Source: Patiriisocius marinus (GTDB taxonomy: Bacteria > Bacteroidota > Bacteroidia > Flavobacteriales > Flavobacteriaceae). From it: a DNA stretch of 64,000 nt. This document shows positions 2,049 to 23,965 of the stretch, piece by piece. Numbering within the stretch: the stretch's first letter is position 1; each line of letters starts with the position of its first letter. The DNA lies in assembly GCF_008974325.1 (NCBI RefSeq), contig NZ_BKCG01000005.1:124001-188000 (forward strand), written 5' to 3'. Under the pieces are notes generated by a model. That model worked only from the letters and a program-made list of their open reading frames with translations. It was not told where the DNA came from and ran no database searches. Position numbers and translations under genes: made by a program.

Positions 2049-2140
2049 CCGTTCATCGACACTTAACTGCCATCCGTCTACACCAATTAGCTAGTTGGTC
2101 TAAGTTTTCAAATAAATACTGTTAATTAATTGCACTTTTG
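2049..2140 (+). promoter_or_regulatory. LytTR-type direct repeat and promoter of the H-NOX/FIST relay operon
   Basis: Two copies of a 14-bp box, CCGTTCATCGACAC (2049) and CCATCCGTCTACAC (2070), are spaced exactly 21 bp (two helical turns). With its preceding base the first copy reads ACCGTTCAT, which fits the published LytTR half-site [TA][AC][CA]GTTN[AG][TG]. A -7-like element CACTTTTG (2133-2140, consensus TAnnTTTG) lies 63 bp after the start of the proximal box. A near-palindrome ACCAATTAGCTAGTTGGT (2082-2099, 16 of 18 positions) overlaps the end of the proximal box and extends towards the -7 element; it could be a second operator. The box/promoter spacing recurs at four other promoters in the window. 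Confidence 0.65.
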
Positions 2141-2152
2141 TATGTAATAAAA

Positions 2153-2578
2153 ATGCTAATTTTGGGGAAAACAAATTTAAAAATACTTCTTATTGAAGAT
2201 GACACAATAGAAGTGATGAAGCTAAAACGAGCCGTTAAAAAGCTCGAGATGAATCACACTCTTATTGAAGCTAAAAATGGTGAGGAAGCATTGTCTATAT
2301 TAAAAGACGATAACATACTTCCAGACATTATATTTTTAGATTTGAATATGCCTAAAATTAATGGCTTAGAGTTTTTGAAAATATTAAAAAAGGATGATGT
2401 TTTAAAATTTCTTCCTACAGTTATTTTAACAACCTCTAGCAACAGAAGAGATGTTTTAGCTTGCTATAGCGAAGGTGTTGCGGGTTATATTATTAAGCCA
2501 TTAAAATATGAAGATTACGTAGCTAAAATTGAGACTGCGCTAAATTATTGGGCTATGAACGAATTAATTAAAGCATAA
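2153..2578 (+). CDS. Single-domain response regulator (CheY/Rcp1-like)
   Basis: A stand-alone receiver domain of 141 residues. It has the acidic pair in LLIEDD, the phospho-acceptor Asp in FLDLNMPKINGLEF, the Thr/Ser of LTTSSNR and the Lys of YIIKPL. The form is typical of Rcp1-like regulators that pair with PAS kinases. It has no output domain, so it probably acts as a phosphate carrier or through protein contacts. The reading frame can be extended to a TTG at 2138, but that codon lies inside the -7 element; ATG at 2153 is about 13 bp after it and is the better start. Its stop overlaps the H-NOX start codon (TAATG), so the two are translationally coupled. It is the first gene of the seven-gene relay. 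Confidence 0.88.
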   Translation: MLILGKTNLKILLIEDDTIEVMKLKRAVKKLEMNHTLIEAKNGEEALSILKDDNILPDIIFLDLNMPKINGLEFLKILKKDDVLKFLPTVILTTSSNRRDVLACYSEGVAGYIIKPLKYEDYVAKIETALNYWAMNELIKA

Positions 2579-3120
2579 TGAAAGGTATTGTATTTACAGG
2601 TTTTTTAGAATTAGTTGAAGAAAAATTTGGTTTTGAAATGGTTGACACTATTATCACCAAATCTGAACTTCCTTCTAATGGAGCATACACTGCTGTAGGA
2701 ACTTACAGTTTTGGAGAAATGCTAAGTTTACTTACTAATTTAAGTAACGAAACTGATATTTCAATTGACGATTTACTATTGGTTTACGGCGAACATTTCT
2801 TTACTGTAGTTGAAGATAGTTATCCTGAATTTCTATTACAATATAAAGACCCTATTGATATGCTTTCATCTATTGAAAACCACATTCATGTAGAGGTTCG
2901 AAAAATATACCCTGATGCAGAGCTTCCTACTTTTGCAATAGTTGAAAAAACAGAAGACAGCCTTGTAATGATCTACAAGTCTAGCAGAGCAATGCACGCT
3001 TTTGGAAGAGGTTTAATGAACAAAACCTTTGAGCACTTTAATACAAAAGCTAGTATATTAGTAGAGAAAATTAAACCGAATGGTACTGAAGTAAAATTCA
3101 GTATTAAAGTCTATGGATGA
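2578..3120 (+). CDS. H-NOX haem-binding gas sensor (HNOB domain)
   Basis: A 180-residue, single-domain haem-nitric oxide/oxygen-binding protein. It begins MKGIVFTGFLELVEEKFG, the usual H-NOX start. The proximal haem ligand is H104 in IHVEVRKIYPDAELP, eight residues before the conserved Pro as in soluble guanylate cyclase. The haem-propionate motif YxSxR is present as Y133-K-S135-S-R137. Stand-alone bacterial H-NOX proteins bind NO at sub-nanomolar to nanomolar levels and control a neighbouring kinase or cyclase (family knowledge). Here the neighbour is a histidine kinase whose ATG overlaps the H-NOX end by 8 bp. Whether this copy also binds O2 cannot be read with certainty; facultative-anaerobe members generally exclude O2. 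Confidence 0.92.
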   Translation: MKGIVFTGFLELVEEKFGFEMVDTIITKSELPSNGAYTAVGTYSFGEMLSLLTNLSNETDISIDDLLLVYGEHFFTVVEDSYPEFLLQYKDPIDMLSSIENHIHVEVRKIYPDAELPTFAIVEKTEDSLVMIYKSSRAMHAFGRGLMNKTFEHFNTKASILVEKIKPNGTEVKFSIKVYG

Positions 3121-5089
3121 AGATAAAATTAACATATATAAAAGAGCTCTCGATAGAGAAAAAGCAGCTAGAAAACAAGCAGAAAGAATTCTAGAAGATA
3201 AATCTAGAGAGTTATATTCAAAGTCACAAGAATTAAAAGTAACAAACGAAAAGCTTGAAGGACTAGTAAGAGAAGCAACATCTGAACTTAAAGGTGTTTT
3301 TGAAAACATTGTGGATGCATACGTTGTGATGAATCTAAAAGCAGATGTAATCAAAATGAATGAAGCTGCTGAAAACTTATTAGGTTACACTATTGCTGAT
3401 AGACTAAACCTTGCTAGCATTGTTCATCCAGAAGAACGCGAGAAAGTTAAAGAAGGTTTCAAAACACTTTTCTCAAAAGGTGCAATTACAGATTTCCAGG
3501 TTAACATTATTATCGCTAATAAAGAAACAAGGCTTGTACACATCAATGCCATTGTTATATACGACAGAAACAACTTACCTATTGCTGCACAAGGTATTGT
3601 AAGAGATATCACAAGTGAAAAAGCTGCAGAACAACAATTAATAGATTCGCAAAACAGACTTTCTACCTTAATTTTAAACCTTGAAAGCGGTATTTTATTA
3701 GAGGATGAAAACAGAGATATTGTTATTACTAATAAACGTTTTTGCGACTTTTTTAATATTCCATTTTCTCCAGAACAATTAATAGGACAGAACTGTGAAC
3801 ACGCAGCGGAACAAAGTAAAGGTTTATTCCAAGATCCAGACGAATTTGTGAATCGTATTAACGAATTAACTAGTCAAAAAGTACAAGTACTTTCTGATGA
3901 GTTAATCATGAATGACGGTCGAATTTTAGAACGTGATTTTATTCCAATTTACGAGCATGGAGATTACAAAGGCCATTTGTGGACGTATCGAGATGGTACA
4001 CTTAAAAGGAAATATCGAGAAAGTATAGAAGCTGAAAGACAAAAATATAGCAACATTATTGCTAATATGAAATTAGGACTCATCGAAGTTAATAATGACG
4101 ATAAAATTTTAATGGTCAACCAAAGTCTTGAAGAAATGTCTGGCTATTCTGAAGCAGAGTTAATAGGCAAAAAAGGGGCTGAAGTTTTATTACTTGAAGA
4201 AAATTCAGATATAATAGAGATTGAAAATAAAGATAGACTTAAAGGTAAATCAAACTCCTATGAAGTTAAAGCAAAAAATAAAAAAGGAGAAGTTAGATAT
4301 TGGCTAATAAGTGGCGCTCCTAACTATAATATTAATGGACAAGTTACAGGATCAATTGGTGTTCATCTAGATATTACAGAACTTAAAAATTTAGAATTTC
4401 AGAAGGAATTATTACTTGAAAAATTAGAAAAGAGTAATGATGAACTGCAAGAATACGCTCACGTTGTATCACACGATTTAAAGTCGCCTTTACGTAGCAT
4501 TAACGCTTTAGTAAACTGGATACGGGAGGATAACGATAAAACTTTAAATAAAGACACGCTTAGCAATCTAGACCTAATAGACGAAACTTTAGAGAAGATG
4601 GAACAGTTAATCTCTAATATTTTAAAGTATTCTAGCTTAGGGTCTGATAGTTCAATTTCAGAAAACGTAGACACAAATCAGGTTATTGAAGACATTAAAA
4701 CATTGCTTCATATTCCAGAACACATTTCAATTAAAGTTGAGCAAACATTACCAATAATAAAAGCTGACAAAGTTAAAATCCAGCAACTTTTTCAAAATTT
4801 AATTAGTAACGCTATCAGATATTGCGACAAAAACCCTGGGCTTATTGTAATTGACTTTGAAGAACTTAAAGATCATTATCAATTTTCAATTAAGGATAAT
4901 GGTATAGGTATTGCTCAAGAATACCACAATAAAATATTTAAAATATTTCAATCACTTAATGATCACAAGGATTCTTCAGGAATAGGACTTTCTATTGTTA
5001 AAAAAGTAATTGATCTTTATAAAGGTGAGATATGGTTAGAAAGTGAAGTTGGTCAAGGAACAACTTTCTTTTTCACTCTCAAAAAATAA
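3113..5089 (+). CDS. H-NOX-associated PAS histidine kinase
   Basis: A soluble kinase of 658 residues with no membrane segment. The order is an N-terminal coiled coil (about 1-65), three PAS domains (about 65-180, 185-295 and 300-430, the first and last ending in the PAC motifs GIVRDITSEK and GVHLDITELK), then HisKA with the phospho-acceptor His454 in VVSHDLKSPLRS. The HATPase domain has N-box NLISNAIRYC, G1 DNGIGI and G2 GIGLSIVKK. It starts 8 bp inside the H-NOX gene, the layout of H-NOX/HahK pairs in which ligand-bound H-NOX inhibits autophosphorylation. There is no receiver domain, so phosphate must pass to separate receivers, with the CheY-like and LytTR regulators and the Hpt protein of this operon as candidates. 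Confidence 0.9.
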   Translation: MDEDKINIYKRALDREKAARKQAERILEDKSRELYSKSQELKVTNEKLEGLVREATSELKGVFENIVDAYVVMNLKADVIKMNEAAENLLGYTIADRLNLASIVHPEEREKVKEGFKTLFSKGAITDFQVNIIIANKETRLVHINAIVIYDRNNLPIAAQGIVRDITSEKAAEQQLIDSQNRLSTLILNLESGILLEDENRDIVITNKRFCDFFNIPFSPEQLIGQNCEHAAEQSKGLFQDPDEFVNRINELTSQKVQVLSDELIMNDGRILERDFIPIYEHGDYKGHLWTYRDGTLKRKYRESIEAERQKYSNIIANMKLGLIEVNNDDKILMVNQSLEEMSGYSEAELIGKKGAEVLLLEENSDIIEIENKDRLKGKSNSYEVKAKNKKGEVRYWLISGAPNYNINGQVTGSIGVHLDITELKNLEFQKELLLEKLEKSNDELQEYAHVVSHDLKSPLRSINALVNWIREDNDKTLNKDTLSNLDLIDETLEKMEQLISNILKYSSLGSDSSISENVDTNQVIEDIKTLLHIPEHISIKVEQTLPIIKADKVKIQQLFQNLISNAIRYCDKNPGLIVIDFEELKDHYQFSIKDNGIGIAQEYHNKIFKIFQSLNDHKDSSGIGLSIVKKVIDLYKGEIWLESEVGQGTTFFFTLKK

Positions 5090-5093
5090 ACTT

Positions 5094-6224
5094 ATGAAAA
5101 CAGTACAGTTACAAAGAGTTAAAGATGGTGCTTGGAATTATTTGGGAGAACATATTGAATTAAACAACCCTTTAGTTCTCATTTTTGGAAATAGATATTT
5201 ACTTGAAGACACTTCTATTTACAATGAAATTAGAACCATTTTCCCAACTGGGCATCTTGTTTTTGGTTCGTCAAGTGGTGAAATTGTAGCGGGAGCTGTA
5301 AATGACAACCACATTACTATCACTGCGATAGAGTTTGAAAAATCAACTTTCGAAATCCAAACTTATAATATTGAAGATGCAAATAAAGACAGTGAAAAAG
5401 CTGGTGCTGAAGCTGTAAAAAAATTATCTAAGGAAGGTTTAAAACATGTTTTTGTTATTTCAGAAGGAAGTACAATTAACGGCTCGCAACTTACAAAAGG
5501 AATGCAAAATGAAATTCCAAAAACTTTAATAACTGGTGGTCTTTGTGGAGATGATAGTAGATTTGAAAAAACACTTGCTTCATATAATGAAAACCCAAAA
5601 CAAGGAGAAATTGTTGTTATTGGTTTTTATGGTGAAACATTTGAAGCGTCATTCTCAATATATGGAGGTTGGACTCCGTTTGGACCTGAACGCTTAGTAA
5701 CAAAATCTGAAGGAAATATTCTTTATGAAATAGATGGAAAACCTGCTTTAGATTTATATAAAATATACCTAGGTGATAAAGCGAAAGACCTTCCAGGTTC
5801 AGCGCTTATTTACCCACTTAATGTAAAAAGTCAAGAAAACAAACAATCTTTTGTTAGAACTATTTTAAATATAGACGAAGAAAAGAATGCTATGATATTA
5901 GCAGGAGATGTTCCTGAGCTTTCTTCTGTACAATTAATGATGACAAATATGGATAGCATAGCTGCTGCATCTGAAACAGCTGCATACAGAGCTATGGAAG
6001 GTAGAACCTCTCCTCCTCAATTAGCATTGTTAATTAGCTGCATTGGTCGTAAGCTAGTTTTAGACCAACGTATTGAAGAAGAAGTGGAAGAAGTTGTTAG
6101 TGTTATTGGTAATAACGTAACTATAAGCGGAATGTACTCTTACGGAGAGATCGCACCTTTTTATGGTGAACGTAGTTGTAAATTGCACAACCAAACTATG
6201 ACAATTACACTAATTAGCGAATAA
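5094..6224 (+). CDS. FIST domain protein (NosP-type haem sensor candidate)
   Basis: 376 residues: an N-terminal FIST domain (about 25-220) and a C-terminal FIST_C domain (about 225-376) ending in GMYSYGEIAPF...LHNQTMTITLI, the hallmark end of the family. FIST proteins are cytosolic sensory modules. A subset, NosP, are haem proteins that bind NO and regulate a co-cistronic histidine kinase (family knowledge); haem binding here is inferred from family and context only. The ATG at 5094 lies 4 bp after the stop of the H-NOX kinase, so the longer frame that overlaps the kinase is not needed. The gene is followed with no gap by its own kinase. It thus forms a second sensor/kinase pair parallel to H-NOX/kinase in the same operon. 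Confidence 0.88.
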   Translation: MKTVQLQRVKDGAWNYLGEHIELNNPLVLIFGNRYLLEDTSIYNEIRTIFPTGHLVFGSSSGEIVAGAVNDNHITITAIEFEKSTFEIQTYNIEDANKDSEKAGAEAVKKLSKEGLKHVFVISEGSTINGSQLTKGMQNEIPKTLITGGLCGDDSRFEKTLASYNENPKQGEIVVIGFYGETFEASFSIYGGWTPFGPERLVTKSEGNILYEIDGKPALDLYKIYLGDKAKDLPGSALIYPLNVKSQENKQSFVRTILNIDEEKNAMILAGDVPELSSVQLMMTNMDSIAAASETAAYRAMEGRTSPPQLALLISCIGRKLVLDQRIEEEVEEVVSVIGNNVTISGMYSYGEIAPFYGERSCKLHNQTMTITLISE

Positions 6225-7274
6225 ATGAATCCCCTCTTAAAAAGACAAATAAAAAAATACCTCCCTGAAAATCTTCAGGAACACGTGGATATACAAAGCT
6301 TTTTGAAAGCGATTGAAGATTCGTATGACAACTTTGACGAACAATTCAATATGACTCAACGTGCTATGAAAATTAGCTCAGATGAATTGTTTAATGCAAA
6401 TAAACTGTTGAGACAAGAAACTCAACAACAACAAGCCTTACTTACTAGATTACAAAATGTAATTAATACTGTACGACCTATTGAAGGGGCAACTGGAAGT
6501 TTAAAAACACAGAAAATTCTAGAAGGTGCTAATCTTGCAGATTATATTAGTTCTCAAGCTGAGCAACTTATTGAAGTGAATAAAAATCAAGAAAAGTTAC
6601 TTGATGAACTTGCACTGCAAAACCAAGAGCTTAATGATTATGCTCACATTGTTTCGCACGATTTAAAATCGCCTTTAAGAAGTATTGAAGCATTAGTAAG
6701 CTGGTTAAAAGAAGACTACGGAAATACTATAGGCGAAGAAGGAACTAAACAAATAGAATTAATTGTCTCTAATCTTGAAAAGATGGACGCTTTAATTTCT
6801 GGTATTTTAAGTTATTCAACTATTGATAAAGACCAGAGTACAGCGAGAAATTTAGATCTTAACGAAATTGTAAAAGAAACAATCAACCTATTAAATATAC
6901 CGCCGAAAATTCATATTAAAGTACATCATCTACCAAATATAACAGCTGATAAATTTAAAATCCAACAGCTTTTTCAGAATCTAATTTGCAATGCTGCTTG
7001 CAGTATTGACAAGCCAAATGGAGAAATTCAAGTGATTGCTAGAGAATTAGATAATGAGTATCAATTTGAAATTAGAGATAATGGAAAAGGGATACACTCT
7101 GACTATTTTGAAAAAATTTTCCAAGTGTTTCAAAAGCTAGAAAATGATTCTAATTCTACTGGAATAGGGCTTTCTATTGTAAAAAAAATAGTCACGTACT
7201 ACGGTGGTAAAATTTGGTTAGATAGTGAATTAGGTAAAGGAACTACATTCTATTTTACCTTACCAAAAACTTAA
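6225..7274 (+). CDS. FIST-associated soluble histidine kinase
   Basis: A kinase of 349 residues whose ATG directly follows the stop of the FIST gene. It has no PAS or membrane domain. The N-terminal 135 residues are helical with a coiled coil rich in Gln, Glu and Lys. HisKA follows with His145 in IVSHDLKSPLRSIEAL, then HATPase with N-box NLICNAACS, G1 DNGKGI and G2 GIGLSIVKKI. The catalytic half is closely similar to that of the upstream PAS kinase (shared SHDLKSPLRSI, LFQNLI, TGIGLSIVKK), so the two look like paralogues that diverged in their input halves. This matches NosP-associated kinases (NahK), which lack their own sensory domain or carry a degenerate one. Its probable phosphate acceptor is the Hpt protein encoded 3 bp downstream. 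Confidence 0.88.
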   Translation: MNPLLKRQIKKYLPENLQEHVDIQSFLKAIEDSYDNFDEQFNMTQRAMKISSDELFNANKLLRQETQQQQALLTRLQNVINTVRPIEGATGSLKTQKILEGANLADYISSQAEQLIEVNKNQEKLLDELALQNQELNDYAHIVSHDLKSPLRSIEALVSWLKEDYGNTIGEEGTKQIELIVSNLEKMDALISGILSYSTIDKDQSTARNLDLNEIVKETINLLNIPPKIHIKVHHLPNITADKFKIQQLFQNLICNAACSIDKPNGEIQVIARELDNEYQFEIRDNGKGIHSDYFEKIFQVFQKLENDSNSTGIGLSIVKKIVTYYGGKIWLDSELGKGTTFYFTLPKT

Positions 7275-7277
7275 TCG

Positions 7278-7595
7278 ATGGAACAACCAAATCTAAGCTA
7301 CATTAAAGAACTTTCAGGAGGTGATGCCTCTTTTGAAGAGAAATTAATTAATGTTGTAAAAAACGAATTGCCAGACGAAATAGTAGAATACCAAAACAAT
7401 ATTGAAATTGAAAACTATAAGTTAGCGGCTGAAAATGTTCATAAATTAAAACATAAATTTGGTATAGTTGGCTTAGAAAAAAGCTACCAAGTAGCAATCG
7501 ATTATGAAGCTGGATTGCTTGAAGGAAATTTAGATCTTAAAGAAGAATTTGAAGCTATTCTTCAGTTAATTCACAGTTTTATAAATGAGTTATAA
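7278..7595 (+). CDS. Histidine phosphotransfer (Hpt) protein
   Basis: An all-helical protein of 105 residues. The Hpt signature is VHKLKHKFGIVGLE, with H55 as the expected phospho-acceptor, followed by the Gly/Leu turn and a long acidic helix. It lies 3 bp after the FIST-associated kinase. Such stand-alone Hpt proteins carry phosphate between a kinase or receiver and a second receiver. Here both kinases lack receiver domains while two receivers are encoded in the operon (CheY-like and LytTR), so the Hpt protein is likely the shared node. The sequence is short and divergent, and the call rests mainly on the His motif and context. Confidence 0.8.
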   Translation: MEQPNLSYIKELSGGDASFEEKLINVVKNELPDEIVEYQNNIEIENYKLAAENVHKLKHKFGIVGLEKSYQVAIDYEAGLLEGNLDLKEEFEAILQLIHSFINEL

Positions 7596-7632
7596 TTTGT
7601 AACTTGCTTTTATATCTTAAAGTCCCAATAAT

Positions 7633-8355
7633 TTGAATTGTATTATTATAGATGATGAAACTGCAGCGAGAACCATTGTTTCTCATTTATGCAGCCAGGT
7701 TGATAGTATTAATGTCCTTGAAGAATTTTCAAATGCAATACAGGCAATGAAATTTTTAAACAAGAATACAGTAGACCTTATTTTTTTAGATATTCATATG
7801 CCAGATTTTACTGGTTTTGATTTTATTGAAACACTAAAAAACCCTCCAAAAATAGTATTGACAACTTCAGACAAAAACTTTGCTATTGAAGCTTTTGAAT
7901 ACGACTGTATTGTGGATTATCTAGTAAAACCTATTACCCTGCCTCGCTTTTTAAAAGCAGTACAAAAAGTAGAAAACTTTAGTGCACCTGCTCCTTCAAT
8001 TTCACAAGAGAGTTCTCCTCATAAAAGTTCTGAAACTTCTACTGAAAAAGAAATGTACATTAATATAGACCGAAGACTCATAAAACTAGAGTTTGCGAAA
8101 ATCTATTTAATTGAAGCTAAAGGAGATTATATTCTTATTAAAACAGATGAAAAGAACTTCACGGTTCATTCAACTTTAAAGAAGATTGAAGAAAAACTTC
8201 CAGATAGTTTATTTCTTAAAGTACATCGTTCTTATATTATTAATATTAAAAAAATTATTGATATTGAGGACAGCAGTGTACTTATAGCCAGAGATGTAGT
8301 GCCTATTAGCAGATCTAATAGACCTGAATTAATGAAAAGGCTAAACTTACTGTAA
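7633..8355 (+). CDS. LytTR response regulator of the H-NOX/FIST relay
   Basis: 240 residues: an N-terminal receiver domain with acidic pair DDE at 7-9, phospho-acceptor D53 in FLDIHMPDFTGFDF and the conserved Lys of YLVKPI; a Ser-rich linker (about 120-145); and a C-terminal LytTR DNA-binding domain (about 145-240, ending FLKVHRSYIINIKKI and PISRSNRPELMKRL). Only a TTG start fits: there is no ATG between the upstream in-frame stop and the receiver domain, and MNCIIIDDE is the usual start for this family. It is the last gene of the relay, 37 bp after the Hpt protein. LytTR boxes lie upstream of the operon's own promoter and of the next gene, so it probably regulates both. Confidence 0.9.
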   Translation: MNCIIIDDETAARTIVSHLCSQVDSINVLEEFSNAIQAMKFLNKNTVDLIFLDIHMPDFTGFDFIETLKNPPKIVLTTSDKNFAIEAFEYDCIVDYLVKPITLPRFLKAVQKVENFSAPAPSISQESSPHKSSETSTEKEMYINIDRRLIKLEFAKIYLIEAKGDYILIKTDEKNFTVHSTLKKIEEKLPDSLFLKVHRSYIINIKKIIDIEDSSVLIARDVVPISRSNRPELMKRLNLL

Positions 8356-8357
8356 AA

Positions 8358-8447
8358 CAACTCATCTACATTAAACAACCACTCATCGAGTGTTGAAGTT
8401 ACCCTAGCGAAAAGCACATTTTCAGCTGAAGTAAGTCCGTAATTTTG
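8358..8447 (+). promoter_or_regulatory. LytTR-type direct repeat and promoter of the T9SS-secreted protein gene
   Basis: Two boxes, CAACTCATCTACAT (8358) and CCACTCATCGAGTG (8379), are again spaced exactly 21 bp. A perfect Bacteroidota -7 element TAATTTTG (8440-8447) lies 61 bp after the start of the proximal box and 24 bp before the ATG at 8472. The boxes begin 3 bp after the stop of the LytTR regulator, so the regulator and its likely target site are adjacent. Confidence 0.7.
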
Positions 8448-8471: not shown

Positions 8472-11075
8472 ATGAAAACTAGAATTACTACATTGAAAAT
8501 GCTACTACTTTTTTTGAGCTACATTGCTTTCACAAATGTGAGCACGGCACAAAACGAGCCATTTAACTGTGACTATAGCGCATATCTTTTTCAATATAAC
8601 GATGTGTATGCACTTGATCTTGCCTCTGGTAGTTCATTCCTTGCTGCTGAAAACATTACAGCAGGCAACGTAAATGCAGCAGCATACAATCCGGTAGATG
8701 GATATATTTGGGGATACGTAAGTAGCCCGGCCAAATCGATTGTACGAATTGGAAATGATTTTTCTACAACTATATATACAATTGATGCCTTAACTTCAGG
8801 AAACAAATACGTAGGTGATATTAGTGCTGATGGAATGTATTATTTTAAAGCAGGAGGTAGCACATACTACACAATTGATTTAGATCCTGAATCAGCTACC
8901 TATACTGAGCTAACAAGCACTTCTACATTATCACAAAATATTAGTATTCACGATTGGGCCTTTAATGCTGTAGACAATAATTTATATGCTGTTGAAAAAG
9001 GAACAAATACTTTATACCGAATTAATCCTGCAAACGGCGAAATTCGCTCACTTGGCGAAGTACCTATTCTTTCTGGTTTAGACTATACGTATGGAGCTGT
9101 TTACTTTGATGCTTCTGGTCGTTTTTATGTATCAGCAAACCAAACTGGAACTATTTATGTTATTCAAAACGTTCAAGAATTAGATGGTGTAACTGCTATG
9201 GATTCTAACTTATTTGCCTTTGGTCCAGCAAGTTCAAGTAATGATGGTGCACGTTGTCCTACTGCTCCTGTACTTCAGGAAATTTGTGATAATGGAATTG
9301 ATGATGATGGTGATGGATTAATTGACTGTGAAGACCCTTCTTGTTCTGGTTTTGGTAACTGTGCAGTTATTGACCCAGAAACTTCTGGAGCTAACAGAGG
9401 TGGATTAGAAAGTAACAACAGACTCTCTGATGCAATTTTAAAACGTAACTACAACCGTTTGAAAAGCAATTATAAATTCGATAGAAAAAATGCAAAGAAA
9501 TTAAAAAAGACTTCAACTTACGGAAACCGTAATCCAATGTCTGATATTGAATTAGAAAACTTTATTCCTCTAACTATAATTGATGAAGACTACGTGATAG
9601 AAACTTCGCCAGTTGATCTAATAGATATTACAAATGCAACTGAAGTTTATGGTGTTGACTACATTAGAAATGAAAAGGCAATTGCTTCAATACTTGCACT
9701 AAAAACTGAAAACGGTGTATACGAACACACTAAATACATCTGTGATCGTTTATTAGGTGCTGAACTAATTTCTGTTTCAACTATTGAAATTAATGACCAG
9801 CAATTTATCAAATCACTTATTCGAAACATAGATGGCACAATTGAATTCGTGTTGAGTTTTTCGGCTAAAGTAACTGCTAACGATTCTGAATTCTCAATTG
9901 AAAGTCATTGGAATTTAGACCAATATGAAAATAATACAGAATTCTACAACTTCCAGATATGGTCAAACTCTGTAGATGACTTGTACACTTTGGGAGAAGA
10001 GCTACTTAGATTAGTAGATGTCACCAAACCAATAACAGCTTACAACAACAGCACTCCACCTGCAGTATTTGTTAGAAAAGGAACTTATTTAAATGGTACA
10101 TTACAATTAGAAATTGTAAATACAAATGCTACTCAAGGTGTTACATTTAGTTCCGTATTACGTGCAACAGAAACGAGTAATCAAGAAGATTACACGACAA
10201 CAATTAACCTTGGTGGTAATTACATTACAAATACTACAATCGATACAGGCAACTTATTTGACATTGGTTTTAGAATTGGTGATGGTGTTGCAATACCAGA
10301 CGATTTATTTTTATCTGACGGTCCTTGGGGAATTGATGTAGCGCAAGCTGAAACAACTTTAGAAAGCTATGAGGTAACTGAAAACACAAACATCTTCGAT
10401 AACGATGTATTCCCTATTGAACGTAACATCAATTTACAAGCAACTACAAGCACTTATTTTTCAGCTTACAGAGCTTTAACAGCACGTTTTCAAGCGGTAG
10501 ACTTAACGCAGTATAATGGTTTAAAATTAAATGCCAGCGGTAATGGTTCATTACAAATTACATTAGTGAAACAAGAAATTGAAAACTGGGAAGAACAATA
10601 CAAATACACTATTTCTTTAACCGAAACTTTAGAACCATTTACCATTGCTCTAGAAAGTTTTACAAATGGAACAGGTGAAACAATAGAACTACAAGACTTA
10701 GTAACAATAGTATTTTCAATGACTTCTGAAGATGGAACAGTTCAAACTAAAGAAATGAACTTAGAAGATATTCAATTTGTAAATGAAAATATATTAGGAA
10801 CAACAGATTCGGACTTAACACCAGCACAAAAGCTAAAGAATTTTCCAAATCCTTTTAACGGAGTTACAACCCTTAAATTAAATCAACCTAGCACAAGTGT
10901 ACAAATTACGGTAATTGATATGCTAGGAAGAACAGTTGACACACAAAATATAATAACACAGCAAAATGGTACAGAAGCAACTTATATTAACACCCAATTA
11001 CAACCTGGTGTGTATAATTACATAATAATAGACAACACTTCGATACAACATAACGGAAGGTTTATAATAAAATAG
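8472..11075 (+). CDS. T9SS-secreted surface protein, type A sorting domain
   Basis: 867 residues. A signal peptide (MKTRITTLKMLLLFLSYIAFTN...TAQ) leads into a beta-propeller-like region (about 30-265, DUF6923-like repeats with YALDLASG, YNPVDGYIWG, LYRINPANG). A calcium-type loop follows (EICDNGIDDDGDGLIDCEDP, about 272-291), then a long beta-rich region and a C-terminal type IX sorting domain (FPNPFNG...LQPGVYNYIII...GRFIIK). The protein should be exported by the T9SS and attached to or released from the surface. Its ligand or role is unknown; adhesin or matrix protein is a guess from size and architecture. It has its own promoter with LytTR boxes and a terminator, so it is a single-gene unit tied to the upstream relay. 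Confidence 0.85.
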   Translation: MKTRITTLKMLLLFLSYIAFTNVSTAQNEPFNCDYSAYLFQYNDVYALDLASGSSFLAAENITAGNVNAAAYNPVDGYIWGYVSSPAKSIVRIGNDFSTTIYTIDALTSGNKYVGDISADGMYYFKAGGSTYYTIDLDPESATYTELTSTSTLSQNISIHDWAFNAVDNNLYAVEKGTNTLYRINPANGEIRSLGEVPILSGLDYTYGAVYFDASGRFYVSANQTGTIYVIQNVQELDGVTAMDSNLFAFGPASSSNDGARCPTAPVLQEICDNGIDDDGDGLIDCEDPSCSGFGNCAVIDPETSGANRGGLESNNRLSDAILKRNYNRLKSNYKFDRKNAKKLKKTSTYGNRNPMSDIELENFIPLTIIDEDYVIETSPVDLIDITNATEVYGVDYIRNEKAIASILALKTENGVYEHTKYICDRLLGAELISVSTIEINDQQFIKSLIRNIDGTIEFVLSFSAKVTANDSEFSIESHWNLDQYENNTEFYNFQIWSNSVDDLYTLGEELLRLVDVTKPITAYNNSTPPAVFVRKGTYLNGTLQLEIVNTNATQGVTFSSVLRATETSNQEDYTTTINLGGNYITNTTIDTGNLFDIGFRIGDGVAIPDDLFLSDGPWGIDVAQAETTLESYEVTENTNIFDNDVFPIERNINLQATTSTYFSAYRALTARFQAVDLTQYNGLKLNASGNGSLQITLVKQEIENWEEQYKYTISLTETLEPFTIALESFTNGTGETIELQDLVTIVFSMTSEDGTVQTKEMNLEDIQFVNENILGTTDSDLTPAQKLKNFPNPFNGVTTLKLNQPSTSVQITVIDMLGRTVDTQNIITQQNGTEATYINTQLQPGVYNYIIIDNTSIQHNGRFIIK

Positions 11076-14620: not shown

Positions 14621-14880
14621 TGTAGTTATTTTATACCTGCAAGATACGTTTGGACTTAAGTGTTTCAATCTTAGCATTCCTGCAACTCGTCTATACATTT
14701 CGTCGATTGGTGGACAGATTTTTATTTAGAAGGTCAATTATCTAGAATTGAGCTACAAAACTGATCAATTTCAAGGTGTTTTGAAGGTATTTTTATAGGA
14801 CTTAAATAAAGCTATTACCTTATTATAGTATAGCTTAATCTATTTACAAGAAGAGATTTCGCTTTAAAGTCAGATTTGAA
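14621..14880. other. Divergent regulatory region between exporter and flippase genes
   Basis: A non-coding stretch between the minus-strand TPR/barrel gene and the plus-strand exopolysaccharide unit. It contains the minus-strand LytTR-like core CCACCAATCGACGA (14713-14700) and, on the plus strand, ACTCGTCTATAC just before it. A weak minus-strand -7 candidate TATCTTGC starts at 14646, giving a spacing of 67 bp instead of the usual 61-63. Confidence 0.4.
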
Positions 14881-14950
14881 CCATTCGTCTACATCAAAAT
14901 TTGATTGAACGAAATTCGACGATTCTTCATTGGTCATCAATGCATCTTTG
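14881..14950 (+). promoter_or_regulatory. LytTR-type box and promoter of the flippase unit
   Basis: The box CCATTCGTCTACAT (14881; ACCATTCGT with its preceding base matches the LytTR half-site at 8 of 9 positions) lies exactly 62 bp upstream of the -7-like element CATCTTTG (14943-14950). The distal copy expected 21 bp upstream is not recognisable. The start codon of the 44-residue protein follows 24 bp after the -7 element. Confidence 0.55.
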
Positions 14951-14974: not shown

Positions 14975-15109
14975 ATGGGACTTTCAGTTATTAAAAATAC
15001 AAATTCATTAAAAGTAGTTCACAACGCAAGAGGATTTAGCTCAGCTCAAAAACTACAAGTTGCTTACAGGAAAGTAGAAACTCCTGTAATCAAATTAACT
15101 TTTTGCTAA
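14975..15109 (+). CDS. Small 44-residue protein, first gene of the flippase unit
   Basis: An ATG 24 bp after a -7-like element opens a 44-codon frame ending in TFC, 10 bp before the flippase start. It is basic (many Lys, Arg and His) with no signal or membrane segment. Its N-terminus (SVIKNTNSLKVV) is reminiscent of that of the 98-residue protein at 16495 (LEIKNTNGEINI), so the two may be related. Promoter position, spacing and this echo argue that it is translated; there is no recognised family. It could alternatively be a leader peptide that sets flippase expression. Confidence 0.5.
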   Translation: MGLSVIKNTNSLKVVHNARGFSSAQKLQVAYRKVETPVIKLTFC

Positions 15110-15119: not shown

Positions 15120-16415
15120 ATGCTAGCACGAGTTCAAAACTTATCGAAATTTCTTACTCCTGAAAAGGTTTTTATCATTAGCGCAATAGTAGTAAATGGA
15201 GGAAACTATGCTTACAATTTAATACTTGGAAGAATTTTAGGACCTCAACAATTTGCTGATGCTGCTATACTTGTTACATTGTTATTAGTGGTGTCATTTG
15301 TTGCAATGACATTCCAATTAGTTGTCGCTAAAGGTATGGCTGAGCATACAGACAGAAATGTATCTGCATTTATCAAAAAAGCATATCGATATGCATTAGG
15401 ATTCGGAATTTTTGTTGGCGCACTAGTGGTTGTATTTTCAAAACTATTGAAAGACATTTTTAATACCCAGTCACAAGTTATGTTTATCATATTTGGATTA
15501 GCTATTCCTTTTTACTTTTTAATGAGCGTCAACAGAGGAAAATTGCAAGGTGTAAAATCGTTTACAAAACTTGCTGCTACCTATCAATTAGAAATGCTTT
15601 CAAGATTCATTATTACTTTGGTTCTTTTATTCTTCTTTAATATTGACTCCTCATTAGCTGTTTCAATTGCCATTGCAATATCTTTCATCGCCGGAATATT
15701 TCCGCTACAAAAAAAATCATTTTATATAAAATCACAACTTTCGATTAGTAATGTAGAACAAAAATTACTCATCAGGTTTTTTATAATAACCGCTTGTTAC
15801 GAGCTAACTCAAATAATTTGCAATAACAGCGATATACTTTTAGTCAAACACTTTTTTCCATCGTATGATGCAGGTTTATATGCTTCACTCGCATTAATAG
15901 GTAGAGTAGTATATTTTGTAACCTGGATGTTTGTAATGTTATTGCTCCCTACCGTAATAGCTAAACGTAAAGAAGGAGAGAACACGGTTCCGGTACTTAT
16001 AAAGTATGTAACCTATATAAGTATTCTTGCTGGTGGGATTGTTGGGTTTACATTTCTCTTCCCTACATTTTCAGTTACAATGCTTTTTGGTGAGGACTAC
16101 ATAGCAATTGCTCCATTATTAGGGTGGTATGCATTAGCAACATCGTTTTTTGCAGTCTCAAATGTCTTTGCCTATTACTTCCTTTCATTAGATAAATACA
16201 TGCCAATTATCATTGCATCTGTATTAGGAATAGCACAAATAATTTTAATAACACTATTTCACGAAAACCTGTATCAAGTTGTAATAATGCAAGTTATAGC
16301 GATGTGTGCTTTATTAATAGGGCAGTTAGGGTATTTTTTCATCGGAAATATTAAAACCGAAAAACAGCTTAATCGCAAGCTTACTTCCACTCATCGATAC
16401 AAAAATGCAGCCTAA
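15120..16415 (+). CDS. Wzx-like polysaccharide flippase (MATE/MOP superfamily)
   Basis: 431 residues with about 12 hydrophobic segments in the pairwise pattern of the oligosaccharidyl-lipid/polysaccharide flippase superfamily. The N-terminus carries the typical motif ...NYAYNLILGRILGPQQFADAA, equivalent to the NxxLGRxLGPxxYG signature of Wzx/PST proteins. It should move a lipid-linked glycan, or take part in glycan export, at the inner membrane. PelG of the Pel system is a member of the same superfamily. It is co-directional with the 98-residue protein and the GT4 gene, and divergent from the outer-membrane TPR/barrel gene. The last codons overlap the LytTR box at 16387. Confidence 0.87.
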   Translation: MLARVQNLSKFLTPEKVFIISAIVVNGGNYAYNLILGRILGPQQFADAAILVTLLLVVSFVAMTFQLVVAKGMAEHTDRNVSAFIKKAYRYALGFGIFVGALVVVFSKLLKDIFNTQSQVMFIIFGLAIPFYFLMSVNRGKLQGVKSFTKLAATYQLEMLSRFIITLVLLFFFNIDSSLAVSIAIAISFIAGIFPLQKKSFYIKSQLSISNVEQKLLIRFFIITACYELTQIICNNSDILLVKHFFPSYDAGLYASLALIGRVVYFVTWMFVMLLLPTVIAKRKEGENTVPVLIKYVTYISILAGGIVGFTFLFPTFSVTMLFGEDYIAIAPLLGWYALATSFFAVSNVFAYYFLSLDKYMPIIIASVLGIAQIILITLFHENLYQVVIMQVIAMCALLIGQLGYFFIGNIKTEKQLNRKLTSTHRYKNAA

Positions 16416-16456
16416 CGATAATTGAAAATTTAAAAAGGGTTAAACCTAGATCTTTG
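16387..16456 (+). promoter_or_regulatory. LytTR-type box and promoter of the 98-residue protein/GT4 unit
   Basis: The box CCACTCATCGATAC (16387) is exactly 62 bp upstream of the -7-like element GATCTTTG (16449-16456). The site expected 21 bp upstream of the box (16366, AGCTTAATCGCAAG) keeps the ATCG core. The box lies inside the end of the flippase gene. Confidence 0.6.
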
Positions 16457-16494: not shown

Positions 16495-16791
16495 ATGGCT
16501 CTAGAAATTAAAAATACAAACGGAGAAATTAACATTAATGGAAACGCTTCAGAAGGACAAATAACACAAGTAAAAAATTATTTAAAAGCATTAATGACTA
16601 TAAAGGATAGTGTGCTATTAAATATCCAACAAGTAAAAGAAGGTCAAGAATCATTAATCAAAATGATCGAAACTATTAAAACTGAAATTCAAGATTACCA
16701 AACAATATATTACTACGGTGTAAGTAGCTCAAAAGTGAAACAACTTTACCCAATTAACCAAATGCCAGTTAGAATATACCTAGCAGCATAA
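16495..16791 (+). CDS. Small 98-residue protein of unknown function in the exopolysaccharide locus
   Basis: 98 residues, soluble, with no signal peptide. The N-terminus is beta-like (MALEIKNTNGEININGNAS); the centre is a long amphipathic helix (about 22-70) rich in Gln, Lys and Glu; the end contains VSSSKVKQLYPINQMP. I do not recognise a family. It has its own LytTR-box promoter and is followed 38 bp later by the GT4 gene, so it is the first gene of that unit. A regulatory or scaffold role beside the glycosyltransferase is possible but unproven. Confidence 0.7.
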   Translation: MALEIKNTNGEININGNASEGQITQVKNYLKALMTIKDSVLLNIQQVKEGQESLIKMIETIKTEIQDYQTIYYYGVSSSKVKQLYPINQMPVRIYLAA

Positions 16792-16829: not shown

Positions 16830-18032
16830 ATGAAATTAGCAATTGTTACCGCATATCCCCCGAGTAAAGTAACCTTAAATGAATATGCTTACCACTTAGT
16901 AAAACATTTTCGCCAACACCAAGAAGTAACTGAATTAATCCTTCTAAGTGATGTAACTCCAGAAAGCGCAGATATCACTTTCGAAGAAGATGGTTGCAAA
17001 ATTACAGTTAAACAATGCTGGAAATTTAATGGATACAGAAACGTGTTTACAATTGCAAAAGCAATAAAAGCTACAAAACCAGATGCTGTATTATACAACC
17101 TTCAATTTATGAAGTTTGGAGACAAAAAAATACCTGCTGCATTAGGCTTGTTCTCTCCTTGGCTTACTAAAATGATGAAAGTAAAATCTATTGTTTTATT
17201 GCACAACATTATGGAAGCAGTAGACCTAGATAGTGCAGGATTTGCTAGCAATAACTTAAAGAAAAATGTATTTAACTTTATAGGCGAAATGCTAACAAGA
17301 GTGGTACTTAAAGCTGATAACGTAGCTGTTACTATAAGCAAGTACGTAGATATCTTAGAAGAAAAATACAATGCTAAAAACTGTTTACTTATTCCACATG
17401 GAACTTTTGAAATTCCTGATGAACCAGACTATACAGTAGCAGAAGGACCATTAAAAATTATGACTTTCGGAAAATTTGGAACCTACAAAAAAGTAGAAGT
17501 ACTTATCGAAGCAGTTGAAATGGCTAGAACAGTTACTAGAAAAGAATTAGAAATTGTAATTGCAGGAACTGATAACCCTAACACTCCTGGATATTTAGAA
17601 AGTGTAAGACAAAAATATAAAGATGTACCTAACATTACATTTACAGGGTACGTTGCGGAAGAAGATGTTCCAGTTATTTTCTCTGAAAGTGCAATGGTAG
17701 TTTTCCCATACACATCGACAACAGGTAGCTCAGGTGTGTTACACCAAGCTGGAAGCTATGGAAAAGCAGTGATAATGCCTAATCTAGGAGATTTAAAAAC
17801 ACTAGTTGAAGAGGAAGGTTACAAAGGATTATATTTTGAAGCAGAAGATGTAATAAGCCTTTACAAAGCAATCAATGAATTAGTAGCAAATGAAGCTTAT
17901 AGAACGCTAATCGCTCAAACAAATTACAGAGCTGCAACAGCTTTGCCAATGTCAAAAATTACTAAAATGTACTTGAATGCATTTCAAGACAAAGCGCTAA
18001 ATACTGAAGTAAATTCAATATTAGCTGCATAA
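16830..18032 (+). CDS. Glycosyltransferase family 4
   Basis: A cytosolic GT-B enzyme of 400 residues. The C-terminal GT1/GT4 domain shows LKIMTFGKFGTYKKVEVLIEA (nucleotide-sugar domain start), VIAGTDNP, FTGYVAEEDVPVIF and the donor-site region VFPYTSTTGSSGVLHQAGSYG. The N-terminus (MKLAIVTAYPPS) is the acceptor-domain start. It should transfer a sugar from a nucleotide donor to a growing glycan; the sugar cannot be read. PelF of the Pel system is also GT4. It is convergent with the GH-A hydrolase gene, whose end is 2 bp away. Confidence 0.87.
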   Translation: MKLAIVTAYPPSKVTLNEYAYHLVKHFRQHQEVTELILLSDVTPESADITFEEDGCKITVKQCWKFNGYRNVFTIAKAIKATKPDAVLYNLQFMKFGDKKIPAALGLFSPWLTKMMKVKSIVLLHNIMEAVDLDSAGFASNNLKKNVFNFIGEMLTRVVLKADNVAVTISKYVDILEEKYNAKNCLLIPHGTFEIPDEPDYTVAEGPLKIMTFGKFGTYKKVEVLIEAVEMARTVTRKELEIVIAGTDNPNTPGYLESVRQKYKDVPNITFTGYVAEEDVPVIFSESAMVVFPYTSTTGSSGVLHQAGSYGKAVIMPNLGDLKTLVEEEGYKGLYFEAEDVISLYKAINELVANEAYRTLIAQTNYRAATALPMSKITKMYLNAFQDKALNTEVNSILAA

Positions 18033-18033
18033 A

Positions 18034-20777: not shown

Positions 20778-23700
20778 CGTGGATTTCCTATGTACGAGTT
20801 AGTGGTAATTGAAATAAAACGGTATAACTCATTTGTAACTTCAATTAAAGATTCAGTTTTCCCATTATCATTTCTATTCGGAACAATTTTAGCTGAAATT
20901 CTACTATTTGCAAGCCCGTTAACTGACACATTATCTAAGCTTGACGAAAGCACTTTTGGGATTTGATTTATTTGTAACGACAAAGAGAATGGTCTTTTTC
21001 GTTGTTGTCTAACACTCTCATCAACATATTGCGCATCTACCCAAAGTAATCCACCTTCAGCATCATAATAACTAATTAGTAATTGTGGTATTGTTGCTGC
21101 TTGCGAGCTTTGATTGAATAAAAAACCATCTAAAATAGCTCCTTCTTGTTTTACACTTGATGGCGCAGCAGCTTGATACAAATCGGACGTAGCTACATTC
21201 GCTTTTACTTGAATACTGAAGTTTACAGGCTCAATTACTTCGGAATCTACCCAGGCTATAGATTCAAAATCTATTCGGTATGGTGTAGTCTCTTTCGCAA
21301 GTAGCTTATGTTTTATTACATCTTTTGCATTAAACCTAGCTATTTCAACGTTTTCTTTATCGTATAAAATACCAGTTACAGAAACATCAGAAGGTATATT
21401 ATCTACATTTTGAAGCTCTCCTACAATAGCGTATGTGGTATCTAATTGTACCAATTTAGCAGAAAGCACTTCTATTACAGGTTGTTTTAACACATCCTCA
21501 TGATGCGTTTTCTGAGTAGTTATTTTTCGTTTTCCGTGATTATAGAATGATGTTGCACTCTCTATTACCAATTGATCTGGCGGAATATCTGGATCAATAT
21601 CTTTAGGTAAAATATACCATTCCCCTTTATCTTTTCTAAGACTTAAAGTATCGTTTGTTTTAATTAACTTTAAAGGTGTAACCCAGTTTGCAGCTACGTA
21701 AGCCAAGGCGGTTGGACCTTTTTCTTCTACAATTTTAACCGAAATACTATCCATTTTAGCATACGAACTTAACAATCCATCTGATGTAGATATTTCAAGC
21801 ATAAATTGTGATATATCATAATCACTCTCTGGATCAATATAAGAATGCGCTCTTTCAAACTCTTTAAAATCCAACGCATCATAGTAAGCAGTTACAAGAT
21901 TTTTAGCACTCGCCTGTGTTGCATTAGCTGTATAAAAATGATAGACACCAAATAATATGATTCCAGTTAAAATAACAGCCCAAACTGCTGAAGCTATAAA
22001 TATCACTCTATAGTTTTGTTTTCGTACTGGCTGAAACGAGAAATAAATAGGGTGGTATTCTTTTCCTACTTTGAAAGATCTACTCCACATAGATTTGAGT
22101 AGTAAGAATATGGCTATAAATACTGTACTAAAAGGAACGATTCCCCATAATAATTTTTGAAATAATGGTACATCGTCTTTTGGAAGCAAACTTGGTAATG
22201 GCGTAATACCTGCCTTTTCCCAAACCATAATACCGTTTTCTAATAAACTTAATCGATGCCACCCTGTAAAGTACAGCAATGGATCGTAAAATTTATCATT
22301 AGAGAAAACATATTTTAAATGGTACTTTTCAGGAACAGTTAGAAACTGTTGTAACGAGCCTATTCCTTCTAGACCTTGGTATTTTGAATTTTCTAGTCGC
22401 TCTACAGCTCTTGAAGTAAGCTCAGGCAACCTTCTTGCTGAATGGTAATTTCCATCTACTGTTGTAGCACTTGTTTGTGCTGAAAGCCATGCCATTTGAT
22501 CTCCAAAACCTAAAGGAAGGTAACGCCACATATCGTGATCATCTTCATTTAAAAAATTAACAATAGGCAGCATGTTTATAGTATCAGGCTGGCTAGGTCT
22601 AAACTTCCCTAAAGTAATTGTAAAAACTCCAATAAGTATAAACAACATTGCTAATGCACCACCAGTGAGGCGATGAATAATAGGCCCAAATCTTTTTTGA
22701 AATGCATCTTTATAATCTCCCTCAACAAAACGATAACATAGCTCACCAAAAACAGGAAGTGCCATTATTGAGGCCCAAAGTGTAAATCTATCTAGCGTTA
22801 ATATGTTGAAGGCATTTTCACCTAACATATATCTTGGAATCACAGTTGTCCCTCCTGTTCCTAGAATAAACAATAAGGTGAAAAAGATCCCGAAAAACAA
22901 AAGCCTTTTACTATAATATCGATAAAAGAAATAAGGTAAAAAGACTAATAAAATTCCCCACGGAATTACAAAAAACACTAATCCGGATGATGTTACTTCT
23001 ATAAAACTATCTCGAGACCCATGTGGAATAGGTACTTGAGTTATAGGGTTATTTTTTGTGTTTATCCAATATGGAAGAATACAACCTACTATAAGCACTA
23101 ATGAAGAACCTCCAAAAAGTAAAATTCGTTTTAAATGTTTCCAAAACGTTTTTAAAAATACAGTAAACGTAATCTCTTTATCACTATTTACTTGCTCTCG
23201 AGAAGCATCCATAAGTACTAATCCTATTAGTGGAAATATAAAAAATATCATCCCAAAAATAGGTGTAACATGATGCGAACAAACTGTAACCGCTAATAAG
23301 GCTAGCGATTTAAAGAATGCCCCTTTACTTCCTGTTTTAAGCCAAATATAAATTTCCGGAAGTGTATGTAATAATATAGAGATACCTATTATACTAGGTA
23401 ATTGTCCAAATATATGTAGCGTTTCTACAAAGGAAGATGAAAATACAGCTAAAACTGCTGCATAACCTGCTACTTTCTTATTAGGTATAAGCACTTGAGT
23501 AAATCGATATACTCCTGTGATAAATAGTACCACTCCTATAAGTGCCACAGTAAACATCCCAAATTTCAATCCACCTATGTGAGACAGTGCTCCTATACTT
23601 TGATGCACTAATGGTGGATACCCCATTACGGTAAAGCCAGTGTACCAACTATAATTCCAAGGTTCAAACCAACTCATAGAGTAATGGTTTGCGAAAAATA

Positions 23701-23815
23701 AATGTATTAATGCATCATATGTTCGCTCTAACGTATAGAACATAGAAGTTCCATGGAATATAATTCCGAGTAGAATTGCTGTAATTAAATATTTATTAGT
23801 TCTAGATGCAGCCAT
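20774..23815 (-). CDS. Large GT-C-like polytopic membrane protein of the exopolysaccharide locus
   Basis: 1013 residues. The first 440 form about ten membrane helices with long periplasmic loops, including the acidic/aromatic stretch TYDALIHLFFANHY and MSWFEPWNYSWYTGF after the first helix, as in GT-C glycosyltransferases and the PTPS-related membrane family (PF10131). Another helix lies near 560, one near 610, and then a long periplasmic C-terminal region (about 640-1013) with an NTF2-like segment (AKNLVTAYYDALDFKEFERAH) and beta domains. It may polymerise or modify the glycan using a lipid-linked donor (inference). It is the first gene of the operon with the lipoprotein and hydrolase. A -7 element TATCTTTG lies 38 bp upstream of the ATG on the minus strand. 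Confidence 0.75.
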   Translation of the reverse strand: MAASRTNKYLITAILLGIIFHGTSMFYTLERTYDALIHLFFANHYSMSWFEPWNYSWYTGFTVMGYPPLVHQSIGALSHIGGLKFGMFTVALIGVVLFITGVYRFTQVLIPNKKVAGYAAVLAVFSSSFVETLHIFGQLPSIIGISILLHTLPEIYIWLKTGSKGAFFKSLALLAVTVCSHHVTPIFGMIFFIFPLIGLVLMDASREQVNSDKEITFTVFLKTFWKHLKRILLFGGSSLVLIVGCILPYWINTKNNPITQVPIPHGSRDSFIEVTSSGLVFFVIPWGILLVFLPYFFYRYYSKRLLFFGIFFTLLFILGTGGTTVIPRYMLGENAFNILTLDRFTLWASIMALPVFGELCYRFVEGDYKDAFQKRFGPIIHRLTGGALAMLFILIGVFTITLGKFRPSQPDTINMLPIVNFLNEDDHDMWRYLPLGFGDQMAWLSAQTSATTVDGNYHSARRLPELTSRAVERLENSKYQGLEGIGSLQQFLTVPEKYHLKYVFSNDKFYDPLLYFTGWHRLSLLENGIMVWEKAGITPLPSLLPKDDVPLFQKLLWGIVPFSTVFIAIFLLLKSMWSRSFKVGKEYHPIYFSFQPVRKQNYRVIFIASAVWAVILTGIILFGVYHFYTANATQASAKNLVTAYYDALDFKEFERAHSYIDPESDYDISQFMLEISTSDGLLSSYAKMDSISVKIVEEKGPTALAYVAANWVTPLKLIKTNDTLSLRKDKGEWYILPKDIDPDIPPDQLVIESATSFYNHGKRKITTQKTHHEDVLKQPVIEVLSAKLVQLDTTYAIVGELQNVDNIPSDVSVTGILYDKENVEIARFNAKDVIKHKLLAKETTPYRIDFESIAWVDSEVIEPVNFSIQVKANVATSDLYQAAAPSSVKQEGAILDGFLFNQSSQAATIPQLLISYYDAEGGLLWVDAQYVDESVRQQRKRPFSLSLQINQIPKVLSSSLDNVSVNGLANSRISAKIVPNRNDNGKTESLIEVTNELYRFISITTNSYIGNPR

Positions 23816-23852
23816 TTATTAGTTAGATGATACTGTATTAAATCAACTTAGC

Positions 23853-23965
23853 CAAAGATACAACTTTCGATAAATGGTCTATCCTTCGATGAACGGTATC
23901 TGTCGACAGCTAAATGTTATCCACCGAAAAAGCAAAAAAACAGCTTCGATACCCAAGTATGTTTG
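23853..23965. promoter_or_regulatory. Divergent promoters with LytTR-type boxes between membrane-protein and GT2 genes
   Basis: On the plus strand, GTATCTGTCGACAG (23896) carries the core GTCGACA and lies exactly 62 bp upstream of a perfect -7 element TATGTTTG (23958-23965) for the GT2 gene. On the minus strand, ACCGTTCAT (start 23897), identical to the first LytTR half-site of the relay promoter, and ACCATTTAT (start 23878) are spaced 19 bp. They lie 36 and 17 bp upstream of a perfect minus-strand -7 element TATCTTTG (23860-23853). The minus-strand geometry differs from the others, so that promoter could be repressed instead of activated. Confidence 0.55.

Follow-up and report, generated by a model that had tools for sequence, protein, structure and literature searches.

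For regulators with a LytTR DNA-binding domain, binding to direct repeats of 9 bp, in most cases separated by 12 bp, has been described upstream of the -35 element (PMC6193735). A related arrangement was found in a stretch of 64,000 nt from the flavobacterium Patiriisocius marinus (contig NZ_BKCG01000005.1, positions 124,001 to 188,000 of the forward strand), referred to as the window throughout. Here, a LytTR response regulator is encoded in one gene row with two predicted nitric oxide (NO) sensors, and boxes with a period of 21 bp, the sum of the 9 bp and 12 bp mentioned above, are located at a fixed distance from the -7 elements of five promoters. HdrR and BrsR also use direct repeats just upstream of the promoter and are autoregulated (PMC6193735), AgrA binds two direct repeats (PMC4227749), and the BrsR repeat ACCACTTAT is similar to ACCACTCAT at 8378-8386. 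HdrR and BrsR differ in being controlled by membrane inhibitors rather than by a phosphorelay and in acting on -35/-10 promoters. Two repeats are described for these regulators and for AgrA, whereas two promoters in the window, those of the relay operon and of the gene for a DUF6923 protein, have half-sites A and B and perhaps a third one, C.

AlgR of Pseudomonas aeruginosa is likewise a LytTR-type response regulator of polysaccharide (alginate) genes. Its core CCGTTCGTC (PMC4064291) is one base off the flavobacterial consensus CCATTCGTC and off CCGTTCATC at 2049, and the agreement at 8 of 9 positions is taken as a resemblance. AlgR sites at algD are given as -470 and -394 plus an inverted one at -45 (PMC4064291), whereas those in the window repeat in tandem every 21 bp and keep a constant distance to a Bacteroidetes -7 element. 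The promoter motif described for Bacteroidetes is TAnnTTTG (PMC6414381). On the sensory side, H-NOX and NO act in Vibrio fischeri through a phosphorelay (SypF) on the expression of the syp exopolysaccharide genes; the pertinent part of PMC8738867 mentions no LytTR regulator, and phylum and genes are different. In Shewanella, Vibrio, and Legionella, phosphorelays of H-NOX or NosP with histidine kinases are also tied to biofilm, but their output, as outlined in that source, is mostly a cyclic di-GMP (c-di-GMP) enzyme or quorum sensing (PMC8738867). The DNA-binding output of the operon in the window is, by domain prediction, the LytTR regulator. Neither a LytTR/H-NOX circuit nor a LytTR box in Bacteroidetes was reported in titles or abstracts of the papers listed by searches of open-licence literature; LytTR is mentioned in the Flavobacterium papers PMC5395568 and PMC10197871.

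The same box is repeated at a fixed promoter distance in front of relay, polysaccharide, and surface genes, which suggests that one LytTR-family regulator switches them together in marine Flavobacteriaceae. With a probability of about 0.85, judged from sequence comparisons, an autoregulated LytTR activator acting below H-NOX and NosP-like sensors is predicted to drive a regulon of polysaccharide genes and of a surface protein gene linked to the type IX secretion system (T9SS). The relay genes form an operon-like row at 2138-8355:

2138-2578, plus strand: RR1, a receiver-only response regulator (PF00072)
2578-3120, plus strand: predicted H-NOX haem NO-binding protein (PF07700)
3113-5089, plus strand: PAS histidine kinase (domain search)
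5043-6224, plus strand: FIST protein, NosP-like (PF08495, PF10442)
6225-7274, plus strand: histidine kinase (domain search)
7278-7595, plus strand: histidine phosphotransfer (Hpt) protein (PF01627, slightly below the cut-off)
7633-8355, plus strand: LytTR response regulator, the proposed regulator (PF00072 and PF04397), with orthologs in the relatives

RR1 probably starts at the ATG at 2153. Genes for H-NOX, FIST, kinases, Hpt, and regulators are thus found in a single row, and the protein encoded at 7633-8355 combines a receiver with a LytTR domain, the sole DNA-binding domain that Pfam searches detected among the operon proteins. By our own count, 62 of 100 columns of this domain are invariant in 16 orthologs, and its profile matched one chain in the PDB at E≤0.01, 3d6w. 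The HNOB protein contains, by eye, a histidine in an HxHVEV context and YxSxR, which we take to be the motif of such proteins.

The boxes and -7 elements are listed below. Bit scores refer to a half-site model, CCATTCGTCKACACTTAA, trained solely on 78 RR1 promoters of relatives and arranged in tandem with a 21-bp period. Identity to the 12-base consensus of the preliminary description is also given. A -7 element was accepted with at most one mismatch, 61-63 or 82-84 bp downstream of a half-site.

2049-2066, plus strand: promoter 1 (RR1 operon), half-site A, CCGTTCATCGAC, 25.4 bits, same position in relatives
2070-2087, plus strand: promoter 1, half-site B, CCATCCGTCTAC, 19.7 bits, 21 bp after A, 11/12 to the consensus
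2133-2140, plus strand: promoter 1, -7 element, CACTTTTG, one mismatch, 63 bp after B
8358-8375, plus strand: promoter 2 (DUF6923), half-site A, CAACTCATCTAC, 14.5 bits, 82 bp before a perfect -7 element
8379-8396, plus strand: promoter 2, half-site B, CCACTCATCGAG, 6.9 bits, weak, 11/12 to the consensus
8400-8417, plus strand: promoter 2, proposed degenerate half-site C, CGAA core alone, negative bit score
8440-8447, plus strand: promoter 2, -7 element, TAATTTTG, 61 bp after B
14881-14898, plus strand: promoter 3, half-site B, CCATTCGTCTAC, 18.1 bits, 12/12 to the consensus
14902-14919, plus strand: promoter 3, proposed degenerate half-site C, CGAA core
14943-14950, plus strand: promoter 3, -7 element, CATCTTTG, one mismatch, 62 bp after B
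16387-16404, plus strand: promoter 4, half-site B, CCACTCATCGAT, 19.7 bits, 11/12 to the consensus
16408-16425, plus strand: promoter 4, proposed degenerate half-site C, CGA core
16449-16456, plus strand: promoter 4, -7 element, GATCTTTG, one mismatch, 62 bp after B
23896-23913, plus strand: promoter 5, half-site B, weak, GTATCTGTCGAC, 8.8 bits, 8/12 to the consensus
23917-23934, plus strand: promoter 5, proposed degenerate half-site C, CGAA core
23958-23965, plus strand: promoter 5, -7 element, TATGTTTG, 62 bp after B

The recount returned the five distances of the preliminary description (63, 61, 62, 62, and 62 bp), as well as a further box precisely 21 bp upstream at each of promoters 1 and 2. 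That description had also noted a full match of the box at 2049 to the LytTR half-site consensus [TA][AC][CA]GTTN[AG][TG], which was seen by eye at 9 of 9 positions in 2048-2056; the relatives' ACCATTCGT agrees at 8 of 9 positions and ACCACTCAT at 8378 at 7 of 9. Within the window, the A-B repeats are clear at promoters 1 and 2, an 11-nt direct repeat with 21-bp spacing being present at the latter, and the B-C repeats consist of the CGA core only. The third half-site expected at 2091 of promoter 1 was not recognisable. One mismatch in three of the five -7 elements is a weak point. Box 5 has 8.8 bits, whereas the 240 kb of background DNA (see below) contained 20 boxes of 8 bits or more, and promoter 5 is the least certain of the five. 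The possibility that box 5 is spurious was considered; the box was kept as likely because better boxes are present exactly 62 bp before the -7 element of the gene for a GT2 glycosyltransferase in the related loci L159, L161, L162, L017, and L044. Among the GT2 loci fetched, only 4 of 30, the window included, have such a box.

Conservation was analysed in the best 80 of 552 related stretches, each containing an orthologous LytTR regulator, giving 81 loci with the window. Gene order largely recurs, and many loci are truncated by contig ends or rearranged; the DUF6923 gene was matched in 62 loci, the gene for P431, a protein without Pfam family, in 44, and that for a GT4 glycosyltransferase in 40. 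Allowing one mismatch, the initial 12-base pattern occurred 259 times in the direction of the regulator gene versus 20 times in the opposite direction in the 80 relatives, and a reversed control gave 36 matches on both strands. Upstream of RR1, in 78 loci with enough DNA, it was found exactly in 59, with one mismatch in 16, and with two in 3. The tandem model obtained from these promoters has flanks with nearly zero information. Counts of the -7 element peaked 82-84 bp after the first half-site, with 22, 13, and 7 matches, corresponding to 61-63 bp from the second, and at most seven matches per position were counted elsewhere. A partner half-site was located at +21 in 57 of 79 RR1 promoters and at -21 in 13. 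All four promoter classes retain, another 21 bp downstream, a CGAA core, which is probably a degenerate third half-site, C, 40-42 bp before the -7 element.

The RR1-derived half-site was then scored at promoters of other genes with the -7 element disregarded. Half-sites of at least 9 bits were detected within 1500 bp, a wide limit, upstream of RR1 (79/81), P431 (42/44), GT4 (35/40), and DUF6923 (46/62), with 505 matches versus 92 in a Markov null. At 11 bits or more, boxes preceded GT4 in 36 of 40, P431 in 25 of 44, and DUF6923 in 38 of 62 loci. Before de-duplication, 29 of the 36 boxed GT4 and 17 of the 25 boxed P431 promoters had a -7 element at 61-63 bp. The 38 boxed DUF6923 promoters yielded 14 matches at 61-63 bp and 24 at 82-84 bp; other distances gave means of 0.2-0.6 per 3-bp bin in these three classes. 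The 79 RR1 promoters yielded 12 matches at 61-63 bp and 38 at 82-84 bp. No sense boxes of at least 11 bits were found within 500 bp upstream of the genes for a tetratricopeptide repeat (TPR) protein (0/57), P1013 (0/8), or GH (0/26).

Such a picture could in principle reflect chance or shared ancestry, that is, related promoters that have not diverged and pairs in the window picked by eye. The initial consensus by itself is indeed not enriched genome-wide, and the -7 elements are degenerate. Yet the spacers between the elements contain almost no information, and after removal of promoters with similar spacers the -7 element was at a predicted distance in 47 of 54 DUF6923, P431, and GT4 promoters, compared to a mean of 2.8 and a maximum of 10 in 2000 shuffles. 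The distance is also kept by distant copies in other contexts (see below), so this explanation is considered highly improbable.

Counts in the own genome point in the same direction. Twelve stretches with a total of 240 kb served as background. At 13 bits or more, it contained one box, which had no -7 element at 61-63 or 82-84 bp, versus five boxes in window positions 1-27000, all with the -7 element in place, and none in 27001-64000. At 8 bits or more, the -7 element was in place for 2 of 20 background boxes, 6 of 10 in window 1-27000, and 0 of 7 in 27001-64000, the chance expectation being about 7% per box. In 20 further stretches around other matches to the initial consensus, none of 12 boxes of at least 8 bits had a -7 element in place. 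Chance as the origin of the pairs was rejected on these counts and the shuffle test; the earlier statement that the constant spacing is unlikely by chance is borne out, and in the sampled DNA of this genome outside the window the pairing was rarer. As far as sampled, which besides the window amounts to about 8% of the genome, the regulon looks local.

In 199 genomes of the family, a strict 17-base box was searched for at no more than one mismatch. Of the genomes with the regulator, 49 of 82 contained it, versus 4 of 117 of those without (Fisher's test, 9e-20); a reversed control was positive in 3 of 199. Genome G162, a candidate for natural loss of the regulator, was rejected as such since it carries the gene, and recounted as regulator-bearing without a strict box it changes the numbers to 49/83 versus 4/116. 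Another candidate, G100, is fragmented. Within the genus, a looser 17-base pattern was present in all five genomes with the regulator and in none of six without. In regulator-bearing genomes, 73 of 84 box copies are no more than 25 kb away from the regulator gene. Part of the co-occurrence is thus linkage, and the 11 distant copies weigh most. Eight of them have a -7 element at 61-63 or 82-84 bp with at most one mismatch, compared to none of the four copies in genomes without the regulator. Among these eight are DUF6923 orthologs in trans (G130, G012). Four promoters in G183 are also included, of which three belong to a second polysaccharide-like cluster (with one located within a predicted frame). 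This unlinked cluster (L131) also contains response regulators, and its three boxes are located exactly 61 bp before a perfect -7 element. A further candidate for loss, G150, has a distant relay, and no box with a -7 element in place was found. The stretch fetched from the candidate G055 (L190) gave no full-length regulator match and a partial FIST match, and a stop interrupts its H-NOX reading frame; two tandem boxes are still upstream of RR1, perhaps a decaying circuit.

A number of observations weigh against the proposed regulon. No strict 17-base match was found in 33 of 82 genomes that carry the regulator, among them the own genome, and the proximity of the 73 copies to the regulator gene counts here as well. 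In the genus, all six genomes lacking the regulator are small and incomplete. The relatives cannot be treated as independent samples, and there is at least one duplicate, L059 being identical to the sequence from genome G009. Site C is negative by the half-site model at all five window promoters, and 6 of the 10 closest GT2 orthologs are without a box. Outside the window, no site with full architecture was found among the own-genome stretches sampled at 11 bits or more. Over the 3.56 Mb scanned, the initial 12-base consensus gave 57 matches (seven of them in the window) with up to one mismatch versus 79 for its reversed control, and it was discarded as a genome-wide detector. An HNOB match is missing in 6 of the 82 regulator-bearing genomes, and other LytTR-like regulators are present in the own genome.

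The last point bears on the possibility that another DNA-binding protein, such as a LytTR paralog, binds the boxes and that the relay merely adjoins the targets. The own genome (G000) has 22 matches at E≤1e-3 to the LytTR query, receiver-only proteins included. This alternative is nevertheless regarded as unlikely: the box follows the 7633-type regulator in the family and in the genus as detailed above, five of the six genus members without a box still carry a LytTR-like relative of 33-36% identity, and no other operon protein has a detected DNA-binding domain. The earlier proposal of a single regulator with a fixed geometry is strongly supported by the same spacing at the relatives' promoters and distant loci. 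Its assignment to the 7633 protein gains from the 21-bp direct repeats, the half-site sequence, and the co-occurrence, and is qualified by the other LytTR-like regulators.

In the proposed mechanism, the boxes would be tandem half-sites of the 7633 regulator, direct repeats with a period of two helical turns. Half-site B, 61-63 bp before the -7 element, would be the site of activation, and the additional A at 82-84 bp would add cooperativity at the RR1-operon and DUF6923 promoters. Degenerate C with its CGAA core at 40-42 bp is perhaps a proximal contact. Because C would be located just upstream of the place of a -33 element and no -33 motif is conserved, the bound regulator probably substitutes for the -33 contact and activates transcription; conservation of such a motif was denied since positions 32-58 of the register in GT4 promoters all stayed below 0.5 bit. 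The regulator would activate its own operon, creating feedback, together with the T9SS surface protein gene and the polysaccharide genes. Its phosphorylation would be set by two NO-sensor candidates (H-NOX and the FIST/NosP-like protein), two kinases, and the Hpt protein.

The same anatomy may also serve a repressor, or a signal other than NO. Neither the sign of regulation nor that of the NO response can be read from sequence, and apart from the six genomes without an HNOB match, the FIST or HNOB gene is missing at some loci. On the other hand, sites upstream of the core promoter in fixed helical phase without a conserved -33 motif are as expected of an activator, and HNOB and regulator are found together in 76 of 80 genomes, GT4 and regulator in 56 of 58, each number rising by one if G162 is counted. 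This variant is held to be possible, though a good deal less probable than activation in response to NO. The NO link of the preliminary description accordingly stands on the HNOB and FIST domain content, not as an obligatory partnership. We lean slightly towards a family-wide circuit in Flavobacteriaceae, in which a LytTR activator with up to three half-sites of 21-bp period in place of -33 would convey H-NOX/NosP signals to polysaccharide and T9SS surface genes by direct transcriptional control instead of through c-di-GMP. If true, NO signalling in a major marine polymer-degrading group would lead directly to the transcription of genes for the cell surface and for polysaccharides. The box, its 21-bp period, and the 62 bp to the -7 element would provide a testable cis-code for a response regulator of the Bacteroidetes, with which targets could be listed in sequenced Flavobacteriaceae, and suggest a way for an activator to replace the -33 element of Bacteroidetes promoters.

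Genes preceded by or close to the promoters 2 to 5 are the following:

8472-11075, plus strand: DUF6923 surface protein with T9SS C-terminal signal (domain search)
14975-15109, plus strand: conserved small protein of 44 aa (frames compared across loci)
15120-16415, plus strand: P431, 431 aa, no Pfam family, flippase-like by impression only
16495-16791, plus strand: P98, small protein, STAS-like frames in its position elsewhere (by eye)
16830-18032, plus strand: GT4 glycosyltransferase (PF13692, PF00534)
24000-24815, plus strand: GT2 glycosyltransferase (PF00535)

The TPR protein downstream of the relay matches BcsC-type and PgaA models below the cut-off. From the glycosyltransferases and these weak export-porin matches we infer that the cluster product is an exopolysaccharide, and the three exopolysaccharide units proposed initially are retained in that sense. 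Several further downstream proteins are without family, and the structure prediction for P1013 had a mean pLDDT (predicted local distance difference test) of 46.

Small frames resembling the 44-aa protein follow promoter 3 in L002, L004, L009, and L038, and more loosely in L018, L035, and L059; in other genomes, its position is occupied by a frame of about 90-98 aa that looks STAS-like by eye. A box inverted relative to the TPR gene was noticed at window 14683-14700 (plus strand), 16 bp into the annotated TPR frame, and at a constant place at the TPR 5' ends of L002, L003, L004, L018, L038, L059, L082, and L083. The TPR protein probably starts at codon 27. Further along the TPR strand, TA[A/T/C]CTTGC was seen by eye in 9 of the 10 loci compared, L059 and L082 being the same sequence; the geometry of the inverted box is unlike that of the other promoters. 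At window 23884-23895 (minus strand), an oppositely directed box, followed by a second one after 19 bp, points towards the P1013 gene, and L005 likewise has a 19-bp pair on the minus strand. Upstream of RR1, a small gene (about 97-113 aa, LKxLEFIxxFE by eye), not seen in the window, was present in 7 of 8 loci inspected, with its own box and a -7 element at a predicted distance:

L017:6241, L044:6340, L055:5828, L031:5794, L024:4387, L045:4152, and L061:4151: small LKxLEFIxxFE gene

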